Assembly (NCBI GenBank): GCA_034620365.1
Contig: JAQGEQ010000071.1
Location: 4,340,001 to 4,404,000 of the forward strand
Direction of reading: 5' to 3'
Source: Pegea sp. RAD2-039
Lineage: Eukaryota; Chordata; Thaliacea; Salpida; Salpidae
DNA: 64,000 nucleotides
Within the stretch, counting starts at the first letter, position 1; every line of letters starts with the position of its first letter. Positions 20,871-63,052 of this stretch are shown here, one piece after another. The notes under the pieces were generated by a model. It did not search any database, was not told the DNA's origin, and saw nothing but the letters and a program-made list of their open reading frames with translations. Both the position numbers and the translations under genes were made by a program.

Positions 20871-23227
20871 ATGTCTGACTTGATGATCAATATTCAAGTC
20901 CCAGAGATTGAGTCAATGAGCTTGAGGAAGTTAAAAAGATCAATTTTCAAAGAAAAAAAACCATTTGTTTCAAAAAATCGAAAAAAACGAATTTACAAAA
21001 GACAGAAAATCAAAAAGATGAATCAGAAACAGAAAACTGCAAATAAGAGCAGTGACGTCATTATTAAAAGTGATGACGTCACCGAATCAGCTACAAACGT
21101 CACAAAGAAACAACCAGTTACTGAAACCATCAAACCAGCTGTTGATGACGTCACAAAGAGTAAACAAACTCTTGTCATAGAAAAGTCGGAAAAAGTGATG
21201 ACGTCACACAAAAATGATGACGTCATAAAAAAGGTTAAAGGTAAAAACACGAAGAAGGCCATTTTCAAAAACAATAAGAAGACTTCGATTTGGGTGGGAA
21301 ATCCGGAAATTCCCATCATCAAAGCTGAAACGCGAAGTGATGACGTCACTAAGCAACCTGAAGTGACAGATGTGTCGTCACGCTTCGCTGACTTCAGCAA
21401 CATCAACGAAAATTTGCGCGATTACGTCATCAACAAGTTGGGTTTTGAAACGATGACGTCAGTTCAGGCGCTCGCGTTCCCTCATCTTTTAAACAGTCAG
21501 AAAGATGTTTTGATCCGTTCTCCAACCGGAAGTGGAAAGACTCTCGCTTATGCTCTCGCTCTTCTTCAAAATCTTCAACAAATAAGTCCTCAAGTGACTC
21601 GCCACACGGGGGCGCTCGCACTAGTGTTGGTTCCGACGCGCGAGCTCGCGATTCAAACTTTCCAGATCTTCCGGAAGTTATGTGACGCAGTGGTTCGAAT
21701 TGTTCCTACTTGTTTGATTGGTGGTCAGAAGCGCAAGTCAGAAAAATCGCGTTTAAGACGCGGTGTTAACGTCATAGTGACGACACCTGGCCGTTTTCTG
21801 GACCACATCGAGAACACCACGTGCCTCAAACTGGACCAAATCAAATGGTTGGTCCTCGATGAAGCTGACCGACTTCTCGATGCCGGTTTTCAAGCTTCTA
21901 TCCTCCGAATCACTTCACAACTGAATAAACGCGCTGATGACGTCATCAGGACGATTCTTCTATCAGCCACTCTCACTAAAGGAGTCGAGAAGTTGATTGA
22001 GTTGAACCTTCGTGATCCCATCCGTGTTGACGTCATCACTTCCGCTGTTTCCATGCCAACCATCGATTCATCAACTGGTCTAATTGTTGATCAAATCTCG
22101 TTTCCATCGCAACTACATCAATACGTTGTCATGGTTCCCACCAAGCTACGACTTCTCACTCTCATCTCATTCGTCAAAAGTCACTGCGTCATCGCTTCAT
22201 CGAAGCATCGCGTCATCGTCTTTCTCTCATGTCGCGATTCCGTCGCGTTTCATCATCGACTATTTGTTGACGTCATCAAGCCGCTCATCAAATGTGATGA
22301 CGTCACCATACTGCCACTTCACGGCGGTATGGATCAAAACCAGCGAAACGGAACGATCACGTCATTCACCAACGCCACCGGTTCCGCTCTGTTGCTTTGT
22401 ACAGACGTCGCGGCGCGCGGTCTCGATTTGCCGCAAGTTGATTGGGTCATCCAATACACCTCCCCCGGAAATCCGGTCGATTATATTCATCGCGTAGGTA
22501 GAACAGCGCGTGCTGGTCTAAAAGGTGACGTCATCATCGCTGTTGTGACGTCATCACTCGACTAAATTACGCGTTTCTACGAAGGAAGCGCGCTGTTGTT
22601 CCTGACACCCGCCGAGAAGGATTACGTCACGATCTTGAACGGATTCAAAATTGAAGTTGAAGAAATGAAAAGTGAAGAAATGATGAAAGATCTTGTTGAG
22701 AACGCGCGCGCTTCTAATCATCTTCTCAGGTGTGTGTATGACGTCATCAGCTGAGTATGTGACGTCATCAGTTTGTTTGCAGAATTCAATTGGGCAAGGA
22801 GCGCGCGGCTGAAATCCATCGCGCTATGGAAGAGCAAGTGAAGAGCAACCGGAAGCTGCTGGAGTTGTCCACTTCCGCTTTTCTTTCATTCGTCAAATCT
22901 TACGCGACGTTTCCGGTTTCCTTGAAAAAGATCTTTCATGTCAAAAATCTGCATCTAGGACACGTTGCTAAGAGCTTCGTGCTGCAGGTAGGTTGCTAGG
23001 CAACATTGTGGTTGTCATGACAACGATATCGTGAATAGGAGGCGCCTACTGCGATGGTATCGAACTTGAAAAGGTGTTTGGGAGAAACGCAAGTGAAATC
23101 ACTGAAGCGGAACATGATAAAGATGAAGAAGCAAAGTGAAGAGCCAATCAAGAAGAAGAGAAGACATCATCTTGCATCCAAATTTGATCTTTCATCTGAA
23201 TTTAGCAGTGGTATTAAATGGAAGTGA
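20871..23227 (+). CDS. DDX31: DEAD-box RNA helicase, DDX31/Dbp7 type
   Basis: Exons 20871-22524, 22585-22729, 22783-22987 and 23039-23227 join in phase to 730 codons. DDX31/Dbp7 is an ATP-dependent RNA helicase of the nucleolus needed for large-subunit assembly. A Lys-rich N-terminal tail (about residues 1-165) leads into the core: Walker A P-T-G-S-G-K-T at 218-224, P-T-R-E-L-A, T-P-G-R, D-E-A-D at 330-333, S-A-T at 365 and H-R-V-G-R-T-A-R from 540. G-G-Q-K-R-K-S-E-K between motifs Ia and Ib is typical of DDX31. The basic C-terminal tail holds the family block L-G-H-V-A-K-S-F. Introns are 51-60 bases, and two of them carry two TGACGTCA copies each. The N-tail repeats D-D-V-T because the octamer is translated there. 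It converges on STK33, with an AATAAA at 23247. Confidence 0.93.
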
Positions 23228-23246
23228 CGTCACCCGCTTTCGCTCT

Positions 23247-23305
23247 AATAAATATATTTTGACGTCATCGACATAAAACGCGATTTTTCGGCAACTTTGT
23301 TTATT
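23247..23305. terminator. facing poly(A) signals of DDX31 (+) and STK33 (-)
   Basis: AATAAA on the plus strand at 23247-23252 lies 20 bases after the DDX31 stop. The complement of TTTATT at 23300-23305 gives AATAAA on the minus strand, about 180 bases after the STK33 stop. The two genes therefore share a 258-bp 3' spacer and their 3' ends probably overlap. Confidence 0.6.
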
Positions 23306-60657: not shown

Positions 60658-60912
60658 ATGGCTTCAGGAAACCCAGGAGAACAAATTGGACAGTTTAAAG
60701 AGTTCCTCCAGTTATTTAACAAGATCAGCGAACAATGTTTTGTGGATTGTGTCAATGACTTTACATCCAGGAAAGTGTCTAATGAAGAAAATTCCTGCTC
60801 AATTTCCTGTTTGACCAAATATCTTCAAAGTACACAAAGAATATCTCGAAGATTTCAAGATGAATATCTGAAACAAAATGATGGAGCAAAGAAAGGATCT
60901 TTAGGATTTTGA
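60658..60912 (+). CDS. TIMM9: mitochondrial small Tim chaperone Tim9
   Basis: Single exon, 84 codons. Tim9 forms a hexamer with Tim10 in the mitochondrial intermembrane space and escorts hydrophobic carrier proteins to the TIM22 complex. The twin CX3C motif is complete: C-F-V-D-C at 27-31 and C-S-I-S-C at 47-51, forming two disulfides. Q-F-K-E-F-L before the first motif and K-Y-L-x-x-T-Q-R-I-S-x-R-F-Q after the second are typical of Tim9, not Tim8, 10 or 13. Length fits (human 89). There is no intron, in contrast to EARS2, which starts 98 bases downstream. It probably leads a two-gene operon. Confidence 0.95.
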   Translation: MASGNPGEQIGQFKEFLQLFNKISEQCFVDCVNDFTSRKVSNEENSCSISCLTKYLQSTQRISRRFQDEYLKQNDGAKKGSLGF

Positions 60913-61010
60913 TGTTTCGTTTCATGAACAATTAGTTTAGAAGTTTTTGATTTTCAGCAAATTTCAATAAAATTAAATTTCAATAAAATTTGTGATTTTT
61001 TACTCAGATA
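60913..61010 (+). promoter_or_regulatory. TIMM9-EARS2 intercistronic region: poly(A) signals and trans-splice acceptor
   Basis: Two AATAAA signals (60966-60971 and 60982-60987) are followed by a pyrimidine run and ACTCAG ending at 61007, then the EARS2 ATG at 61011. Cleavage after the signals and trans-splicing of a leader at CAG would separate the two messages, as in animal operons. There is no room for a normal promoter. Confidence 0.7.
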
Positions 61011-63052
61011 ATGAATAAGTTGATTTGTAACTTTCAATTTGTTAGAAGTTTTAGTAATCAAGCAATTAGAGTGAGATTTGCTCCTTCCCCGACCGGTAAG
61101 TCCCATTTCTTCTCCTCATATCTTCTTAATCTTTATCTTTCATCAGGTAATTTGCATATTGGAGGTTTGCGGACTGCCTTATACAATTATCTTTTCGCTC
61201 AGAAACATAAAAATGGGAAATTTATTCTCAGAATTGAAGACACAGATCAAACGAGAAAGGTAGATGGCGCCATGGAGCAGATGAGTAGAATCTTAGAAGA
61301 TTTTGGGATTATTCCTGATGAGGGTCCTGTAGTTGGTGGAGGTTTTGGACCTTATATACAAAGTGAAAGACTTGAAATTTACCGAAAGTAACTTTGACTG
61401 ACATTTGAGGAAAATCATAAATTCTTCTTTCAACAGATTTACAAATCAATTGTTGGAAGAAGGAAAAGCGTATCGCTGTTTCTGCTCTTCGCGTCGTTTA
61501 AACATCCTTAAACAAGAACAAAATCGTCGTAATGAAGTTCAAAGGTCAGTCACTAGGCGGCGCCGGAAGAGATGTTAAAAAGACTTCGCGCGCAGATATG
61601 ACAACAGATGCAGAAATCTCTCTCAAACGGAAATCGAAGAAAGTTTATCGCGCTTCAAGCCACATGTCATTCGCGTACCTCTTAGTGACGTCACTGTCAC
61701 CTATGATGACCTCATCTTCGGGAGTAGCAGCTCAGTAATCCAAGAAGGAGATCCCGTGGTGATGAAGAGCGATGGGTAGGATCAACATCTTTAAGTCCCG
61801 TAGATTTTAGCACCTTGATTTGTAAAAAATCCACGTGTCTGTCATGCTTGTTTCAGTTTTCCTACTTATCATTTGGCAAATGTAGTAGATGATCACATGA
61901 TGAAGATCAGTCACGTGATTCGTGGTAAAGAATGGCTGAGTTCACTTCACAAACATCTTCATCTTTATCATTTGTTTGGTTGGGATCCACCTACTTTCTG
62001 TCATGTTCCTTTGCTGATGAACAAAAGTGGGAAGAAGTTGTCGAAAAGAGAAGTATGTCTTGTTGTTATTGGATGTTTCTGATGCTGCTAATCTGATTTT
62101 CATGAAAGGGAGAAGTTTTTGTTGAAAGTTATTTAAAGAAAGGCTTCTCACAAGCTTCTATCATCAACTTTGTTTCTTGTTATGGAGCTGGTTTCATCAA
62201 TCAAAAGTTCCCTGTTCTTCAACCAAATCCAAAAGAGTTGATAAAAACTCTTTCAAAATCTTTCGAATTGTCAAAAGTTGGTTTTCAGTTCTTTTATCAC
62301 TCAAAAATTTAATTTATTTTTCTTAGTTGTCACATACAGATGCTAAGATTAATTTCGATAAACTGAATGAAATTAGTTCCTCGATGACAAGTCATCAGTT
62401 ACAAACAGAACGCAGCAAGATATTTGAAGCTTCAAAGAGATTGATCAAGAATAAATATCCACAGAGTTATTTATTCAGAGATGACATTATTGAATCATCT
62501 CTTAATCAAGTATTAGATAGACTCCAGGTGATTTTTATCATTTTGATAACTTGTAAAAGGTTAACAACTTGTTTAGAATAGAGGGTTGGTTCATCTTCAT
62601 CAGCTTGTTGAAGATCAAAATGAGTTTTTATGGATGCGACCAAAAGTAGAAAATATTCCTTTATTGAATGAAAGCAATTATATCAAATTTCTGCAAGAGT
62701 TTTTATTGTAAGTTTGAACAATCTTCAAAATATTTCAATTTGAATCAAAATCTTTCAGAGTTTTACAAGAAGTCGACTGGACAGATGAAACTAATTTTTC
62801 TAAGATATGTAAACAGATTGTGAAAAAACATTCCAAGAATGTTGGAAATTTATGGAAAATTTTGAGGCTTCAACTTGCTGGTGTTGAGGTTAATACAATC
62901 CAAATTACAAATTATTACAAATCAAACTTGTTGTTGTTTAGAATGGAATGCCAGTGGTTGATTTGATGCAAGTTTTACAGAAAAGTGAGACACTGCTTCG
63001 GTTAGAATATTCGTCTTCAAAATTCAACATTCGTCAATCAACAAGCTGCTAG
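61011..63052 (+). CDS. EARS2: mitochondrial glutamyl-tRNA synthetase
   Basis: Exons 61011-61095, 61147-61387, 61437-61544, 61596-61775, 61857-62052, 62109-62276, 62327-62527, 62577-62707, 62759-62888 and 62942-63052 give 516 codons in phase. EARS2 charges mitochondrial tRNA-Glu (and in many animals mischarges tRNA-Gln for later amidation). The N-terminal 18 residues are basic and fit a mitochondrial targeting peptide. Then come R-F-A-P-S-P-T-G and the HIGH-type [28 protein letters not shown] and the KMSKS-type K-L-S-K-R. The C-terminal anticodon-binding part is less conserved. An AATAAA follows the stop near 63096. One TGACGTCA lies in exon 4. Confidence 0.95.

Follow-up and report, generated by a model that had tools for sequence, protein, structure and literature searches.

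In a 64-kb stretch of the genome of Pegea sp. RAD2-039 (contig JAQGEQ010000071.1, positions 4,340,001 to 4,404,000; hereafter, the window), the 8-letter palindrome TGACGTCA, which is the CREB/ATF site or cAMP response element (CRE), occurs in 52 exact copies between positions 21053 and 61693. We use the term octamer for this exact word only. Its over-representation is genome-wide and far above Markov expectation, and its distribution, exactness and codon usage suggest that a strong force targets the word as DNA. In 100 dinucleotide shuffles of the window, the mean was 0.59 octamers and the maximum four, and none reached 52. A preliminary description of this DNA, made by eye, had given the same count against fewer than one expected, and had the octamer absent from 1–21 kb and from 53.6–61.6 kb; both statements hold, the octamer-free parts being 1–21052 and 53567–61685.

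In the complete assembly (105,744,746 bases in 387 contigs), we counted 27,792 octamers versus 969 copies of the reversed word ACTGCAGT, while the 12-mer GATGACGTCATC occurs 3,824 times versus four times for its reversed control. The human genome is far larger than these 105.7 Mb. Its unmasked sequence holds 10,355 copies of the CRE octamer, 7% of them in promoters, according to Table 2 of PMC3464117, so that the number in Pegea is about 2.7 times the human count. More detailed counts were made in a 294-kb sample (the window, 20 loci of 10 kb on contig C1 and six of 5 kb on other contigs; L001–L004 left out), which is non-random, several C1 stretches having been picked after octamer positions were known, and in which octamer density is 0.44 per kb versus 0.26 per kb genome-wide. 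The sample contains 128 octamers versus 1.86 expected under a second-order Markov model, a 69-fold excess. Among the best twelve palindromic octamers in the sample, only CGCGCGCG exceeds this ratio (120-fold, five copies), and the next palindrome with more than five copies is the E-box word TCACGTGA (9.8-fold, 18 copies).

The flanks of the sampled octamers are symmetric, with A (62%) or G (29%) at position −1, G (48%) at −2 and T (58%) at −3, giving the consensus TGATGACGTCATCA; flank preference past 3 bp on either side is negligible. Genome-wide, 23,214 of the 27,792 octamers conform to RTGACGTCAY, i.e., with a purine before and a pyrimidine after the word. Counts of related words in the sample were zero for CTGACGTCAG and TTGACGTCAA, 47 for ATGACGTCAT and eight for GTGACGTCAC. 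Neither the AP-1 word TGACTCA (38 versus 41.6 expected, 0.9) nor TTACGTAA (3 versus 4.9 expected, 0.6) is enriched there, from which it follows that the full CRE is what counts. The E-box palindrome, by contrast to its reversed word, is frequent genome-wide (4,614 versus 237), and 13 of its 18 copies in the sample have an octamer no more than 400 bp away. Such features characterise a complete CRE to which a dimer binds on double-stranded DNA. The simplest interpretation of the site, in view of the flank rule, the unenriched AP-1 word and the accompanying E-box, is that a CRE-type bZIP protein recognises it. A symmetric AGATGACGTCATCT duplex appears with CREB in PMC11514473.

The octamer is also kept strikingly exact. 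We delimited eight dense zones (at least four octamers, with gaps of at most 700 bp), whose own enrichment is partly due to this construction, which does not apply to the mismatch series. Observed-to-expected (O/E) ratios at zero to four mismatches were 237, 3.3, 1.2, 1.2 and 1.0 inside the zones and 35, 1.6, 1.15, 1.05 and 1.0 outside them; the reversed control word has no exact copy in the zones and ratios of 0.86, 1.67, 1.08 and 1.15 at one to four mismatches. Among one-mismatch words in the zones, TGACGTAA shows the highest enrichment (7 versus 0.4 expected). Genome-wide, 64,917 words have at most one mismatch, so that exactly one mismatch is found in 37,125, versus 27,699 for the control word. 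It stands to reason that neutral decay of a repeat would leave one-mismatch words at least as numerous as exact ones. Unless the copies are of very recent origin, the exactness must come from maintenance that is strong or from restoration that is fast.

The zones cover gene bodies of varied kinds: those of a DEAD-box helicase, of a divergent alpha-tubulin, of a formin, of a bHLH factor and of an ankyrin-RCC1-BTB protein, whose parts were assigned to one gene because of their order and strand; two further zones lie in frames with no match reaching the Pfam cut-off. In coding sequence, the octamer can specify D-V followed by a codon starting with A, or (M/L/V)-T-S, while the third phase would give a stop codon. 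In 14 reading frames, 51 of 69 such eligible codon sites are octamers (29 of 36 of the first type, 22 of 33 of the second; per frame in Table 1), with sites counted on the present protein, possibly already changed by the word, and frames taken from stop to stop as putative coding sequence. In the hot genes, octamers occupy nearly as many exonic positions as the genetic code permits. In the divergent tubulin, the 1,314 bp of conserved coding sequence are free of octamers, whereas five occur in 326 bp of introns, and a more conserved tubulin paralogue (L041) has none in 1,165 bp, its four introns included.

The preliminary description had placed copies in introns (five of six in the tubulin gene), exons, 3′ spacers and over one start codon, and had argued that this does not look like promoter control. 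Both the locations and the argument are upheld: 13 octamers lie in the helicase open reading frame (ORF), and the one at 40511 overlies the first ATG of an RGS ORF (ATG ACG TCA). That we are dealing with ordinary regulatory CREs and E-boxes of the CpG-island type, merely numerous, is distinctly unlikely, in spite of the CRE being a known human promoter 8-mer, also present in CpG islands (PMC3464117), and of the parallel enrichment of the TCACGTGA E-box: the comparison of 27,792 copies in 105.7 Mb with the human figures does not suit it, nor do copies in exons, introns and 3′ parts, with up to 30 in 2.7 kb. A promoter location is possible for single octamers. A function as a branch point was ruled out, the octamer occurring also in exons and spacers.

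Clustering is pronounced. The 58 sampled 5-kb bins contain a mean of 2.2 octamers with a variance of 27.9, and 34 of them are empty; the eight zones, each 0.8–3.0 kb and 13.9 kb in total, hold 87 of the 128 sampled octamers. Masked GC is 0.34–0.50 in the zones versus 0.24–0.41 in their flanks (higher in the zone in eight of eight cases), and CpG O/E is 0.76–1.30 versus 0.31–0.99 (higher in seven of eight). Spacing inside the zones is random (coefficient of variation (CV) 1.06 over 79 spacings, minimum 12). Helical phasing, considered on account of spacings of 18–21 and 30 bp, was rejected: 38 of the 79 spacings are multiples of three, a pattern accounted for by coding phase, and overall they are Poisson-like.

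The earlier view that the octamer is confined to GC-richer neighbourhoods is true on average, density rising with GC (Spearman 0.36, 528 bins), but GC is neither sufficient nor proportional. Among 500-bp window bins with a GC of 0.33–0.45, the 11 bins at 7–19 kb, which carry frames of long interspersed nuclear elements (LINEs), have no octamers, versus 17 octamers in 20 bins at 20.8–54 kb. The densest zone (L013) has 30 octamers in 2.7 kb at a masked GC of only 0.344, and another has five at 0.478. GC declines away from octamers, and at 14 isolated octamers it exceeds that of control words only within some 60 bp. Since GC-matched LINE bins are empty, the L013 zone is low in GC and isolated octamers are close to controls, GC is a companion rather than the cause, and GC-biased conversion alone can be dismissed: octamer number does not track GC. 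As regards LINE sequence, it is nearly octamer-free in the sample; in L013, copy 9917 falls within a LINE-like frame and copy 8363 lies at the margin of a LINE. In the window, 7000–19000 and 63159–64000 hold several octamer-free broken LINE copies with reverse-transcriptase-like frames, some frames of which we take to be PHD-like.

The same data bear on meiotic hotspots of the fission-yeast M26 kind, where a CRE-bound bZIP protein would open the chromatin and recruit the break machinery, and GC-biased conversion would raise GC. The CRE-like ATGACGT in ade6 needs Atf1-Pcr1, and breaks flank some 70 bp free of visible breaks (PMC9775316). GC-rich zones and a GC that falls with distance from octamers would be expected from such a process. 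We nevertheless consider it an improbable explanation, with octamer numbers in zones out of step with GC and the narrow GC excess at isolated octamers. Moreover, in theory, alleles that initiate breaks should be lost, not gained.

Several octamers arose by point substitution, to judge from alignments with relatives and from intron lengths. An ASCC3-like exon on contig C249 aligns without gaps to ASCC3 of PDB 8alz, and its octamer codes for GDVT where ASCC3 has GDVA. In the core of the helicase, whose best solved relatives are HAS1 and DDX18 (we assume it to be of the DDX31 type), three of five aligned octamers (21454, 22028 and 22298) are ungapped across the word, the first of which codes for the MTS of an MTSVQ common with HAS1. 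The helicase exceeds HAS1/DDX18 in length by 3–4 residues at 21938 and by 8 at 22268, the extra residues at 21938 with respect to DDX18 being exactly DDVI; small insertions may contribute at these two sites. Three octamer-bearing tubulin introns measure 52, 52 and 57 nt versus 49, 52 and 54 nt in the octamer-free paralogue.

Spread of a short mobile insert carrying the palindrome, which the preliminary description had entertained, thus fails as a general explanation and survives only as possible insertion at two of the five helicase-core sites. Exactness and the two longer helicase segments would suit it; the ungapped ASCC3-like and helicase sites, the similar intron lengths and the lack of flank preference beyond 3 bp do not, and we give it very little chance of being correct. 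Neither a block absent from relatives nor a longer sequence common to the copies was found, the two ambiguous helicase sites aside. Segment 23512–23900 of the window was also considered as a mobile intron: its matches listed elsewhere, from the 40 of 69 candidates that were scored, all come from contig C50, which makes a dispersed family unlikely.

The helicase locus belongs to a diverged tandem array on C50. Of 137 matches, one is the locus itself and the others listed are all on C50 (again 40 of 69 candidates scored), genome family counts being lower bounds. The interval C50:75678-328718 (L040, L042, L043) comprises some 250 kb of rearranged, diverged fragments of the helicase locus (window 20.85–25.4 kb) and LINE sequence. 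In array copy L040, which is 76% identical, carries indels and is apparently dead, five of ten octamers are intact, versus 131 of 819 control 8-mers (binomial 0.013) and 26 of 252 CpG-containing ones (binomial 0.0019). Three of the five lost octamers have the CpG-decay form, one has another substitution and one is deleted. The first L042 segment keeps its only octamer (one of one), at the same site (21938) as one kept in L040; as array copies share ancestry, this amounts to one comparison and not to independent ones. That both octamers are kept in an ASCC3-like fragment in the window says little, at 93% identity with its C249 counterpart.

Taking these results together, we tentatively propose, with a probability of about 0.4, that a CRE-binding bZIP protein occupies these gene bodies and that exact sites are kept by weak selection per site. 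On this view, a CREB/ATF-type bZIP dimer would recognise the octamer, extended to TGATGACGTCATCA, at the level of double-stranded DNA; point substitution would have produced most copies, and exactness would be preserved in a restricted number of gene-body zones. In the germ line, such a protein would occupy the zones and keep them open and unmethylated, and many weak sites would act additively, each extra exact site being slightly favoured where the protein sequence allows it. The genome has at least 12 matches to Pfam bZIP_1; in three of the four bZIP exons read, we take the basic regions to be CREB-like (L046), JUN-like and ATF3/FOS-like, respectively. It also has at least 11 matches to C5 DNA methylases, seven of which lie in uninterrupted frames of 832–873 amino acids that could be retrocopies or an expanded family; the CpG and GC excess of the zones, in a genome with such genes, counts in favour of occupancy. 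These seven occur on C57, C249, C32 and C52, with two some 4 kb apart in opposite orientation on C57, and the one read (L044) is presumably DNMT1-like. The 18S gene was matched at L037 with 1,567 bits (Rfam, eukaryotic) and looks, tentatively, spiralian; there is a second, weaker match (298 bits) at C125:284378 (L038). The R7-type RGS and wnt genes mark the genome as that of an animal. COX1 yielded no match, no telomere repeat was recognised in 300 bases at each of six ends of three contigs, and two spliced-leader words were absent from the window and the loci scanned for them.

Several observations weigh against the bZIP-occupancy proposal. CREB is general in animals, and its presence explains nothing special here. 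CREB-type factors tolerate half sites and near-CREs, and these are hardly enriched: of 348 copies of the half site TGACGT in the sample (58 expected), 256 belong in pairs to the 128 octamers, so that 92 remain. Octamers sit in gene bodies and 3′ parts, and the ankyrin-RCC1-BTB gene carries its octamers in the hot BTB/C-terminal part, with none in the two upstream exons examined. The 14 isolated octamers show no CpG excess (O/E 0.69–0.86 versus 0.79–0.87 for 1,285 control words), so that a single site marks no island. Finally, retention in the apparently dead L040 fits a force that needs no working gene, and, together with exactness, it speaks for molecular drive.

Under molecular drive, mismatch repair or gene conversion would favour the allele with the exact palindrome in recombining or transcribed zones, and the word would spread without benefit: a self-propagating palindrome, whose exact form TGACGTCA would be restored by biased repair or conversion at heteroduplexes in gene-body zones, rewriting unconstrained protein, and which would be a eukaryotic counterpart of HIP1 and of uptake sequences. 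We regard this as conceivable but doubtful. The sharp exactness, the random spacing within zones, the heavy use of tolerated codons, the origin by substitution and the persistence in a dead copy are all as it would predict; the near absence from LINE sequence is not, and no eukaryotic mechanism with a preference for a single octamer is known to us. In PMC1939737, the few single mismatches of uptake sequences are read as mutation balanced by restoration, and yet those sequences fall gradually, not linearly, with mismatch load, whereas the O/E ratio of the octamer falls from 237 straight to 3.3. The octamer's identity with the CRE, its restriction to zones and the accompanying E-box point the other way, towards bZIP occupancy. 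Both explanations share one essential claim, that a force at the DNA level recognises the exact palindrome, and the data do not discriminate between selection and biased conversion.

Within the window (Table 1), 13 of the 52 octamers fall in the helicase ORF, three in a candidate ORF on the opposite strand, two in an RGS ORF, five in tubulin introns and two in the ASCC3-like fragment; the remaining 27 are outside the intervals drawn for this count, including three placed by eye in introns of the gene for ribosomal protein L3. The ASCC3-like fragment is located just upstream of the tubulin gene and differs from C249 by a 1-base and a 9-base gap. Two R7-type RGS genes adjoin each other (35862–37406 and 39110–40549), each as one long frame with DEP, DHEX and RGS matches. 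The E-box TCACGTGA occurs at 23577, 43244 and 61911, and another 12-mer, GTGATGAGGATC, is present eight times versus 0.002 expected.

Table 1. Features of the window with their octamers, and use of eligible codon sites per reading frame (D-V plus A-starting codon; (M/L/V)-T-S).
Feature	Position	Strand	Octamers and remarks	Eligible sites that are octamers
Hot zone 1	20953-23929		23; masked GC 0.445, CpG O/E 1.30 (flanks 0.243 and 0.59)	
DEAD-box helicase ORF	20868-22565	+	13; D-V then A-starting codon (10), (M/L/V)-T-S (3)	10/10; 3/3 (13/13 in all)
Opposite-strand ORF (candidate coding)	23486-23812	-	3; 23522, 23543, 23684	
Hot zone 2	31747-33848		10; over and around divergent alpha-tubulin gene	
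Tubulin intron A	33360-33410	-	1	
Tubulin intron B	33201-33254	-	1	
Tubulin intron C	32952-33003	-	1	
Tubulin intron D	32660-32719	-	0	
Tubulin intron E	32342-32393	-	1	
Tubulin intron F	32091-32147	-	1	
ASCC3-like exon fragment	33634-33883	+	2; 93% identical to C249:170449-170706, both octamers common to both	
Between tubulin gene and first RGS ORF	34499-35864		4; 34499, 34610, 35561, 35857	
R7-type RGS ORF	39110-40549	-	2; 39820, 40511 (latter over first ATG of ORF)	
Scattered octamers	43272-49808		9; 43272, 45507, 45685, 46987, 47954, 48400, 49148, 49286, 49801	
Ribosomal protein L3 gene	52744-53566		3; by eye in introns	
Last octamer	61686-61693		1; downstream of class I (E/Q) tRNA synthetase exon	
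RGS a				0/0; 0/0
RGS b				1/2; 1/2
L3 exon				0/1; 0/1
Ankyrin-RCC1-BTB gene				10/12; 9/12
Its two upstream exons				0/0; 0/1
L022				4/5; 1/2
L009				0/1; 2/3
L005				3/4; 1/3
L010				1/1; 5/6

Here, a textbook transcription-factor site, kept exact and placed in gene bodies, shapes protein sequence. The octamer offers a natural experiment on how short words spread, by binding selection or by molecular drive, and it warns against taking the number of CREs as a measure of promoter control in every genome. If drive were true, a transcription-factor site would have turned into a molecular-drive sequence in an animal genome. Among the top matches in the open-access literature (subscription journals being outside this scope), no iterated CRE palindrome is reported for any animal; iterated palindromes of such strength are described for cyanobacteria (PMC4390886).

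Compared with CRE/ATF sites as known, the Pegea octamer has an identical core, TGACGTCA, and the same flank preference, and differs in number, density, gene-body and exon location, exactness and heavy use of eligible codons. The M26 site of Schizosaccharomyces pombe is likewise a CRE-like word inside a gene that acts through bZIP proteins (PMC9775316), whereas the accumulation of octamers in Pegea is the opposite of what would be expected of a break-initiating site. The uptake sequences of Haemophilus and Neisseria are also short exact words that sit where coding allows and are built by point mutation (PMC1939737); the Pegea octamer is nuclear, eukaryotic and palindromic, has no known uptake and does not share their gradual fall with mismatch. 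The periodic An/Tn clusters (PATCs) of Caenorhabditis elegans, a pervasive signature effective from introns according to PMC7725773, provide an analogue for gene-body licensing, although they are AT-periodic, non-coding DNA, whereas the octamer is one specific palindrome, also found in exons. The closest likeness in style, as the preliminary description had perceived, is with HIP1 (GCGATCGC) and the alternate cyanobacterial HIPs: they too are exact palindromic octamers, hugely over-represented, and the Pegea word is similarly found in coding and non-coding DNA and arose by substitution at several sites. A reference cited in PMC4390886 states in its title that HIP1 propagates by nucleotide substitution. 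According to PMC4390886 itself, HIPs are linked to methyltransferases whose recognition covers part of the palindrome; in Pegea, no methylase was recognised as sequence-specific. Unlike HIP1, the Pegea octamer is found in an animal, is rare in LINE sequence, equals the CRE and, instead of being spread over the whole genome, is restricted to zones, leaving 34 of 58 5-kb bins empty with a variance (27.9) far above the mean (2.2).

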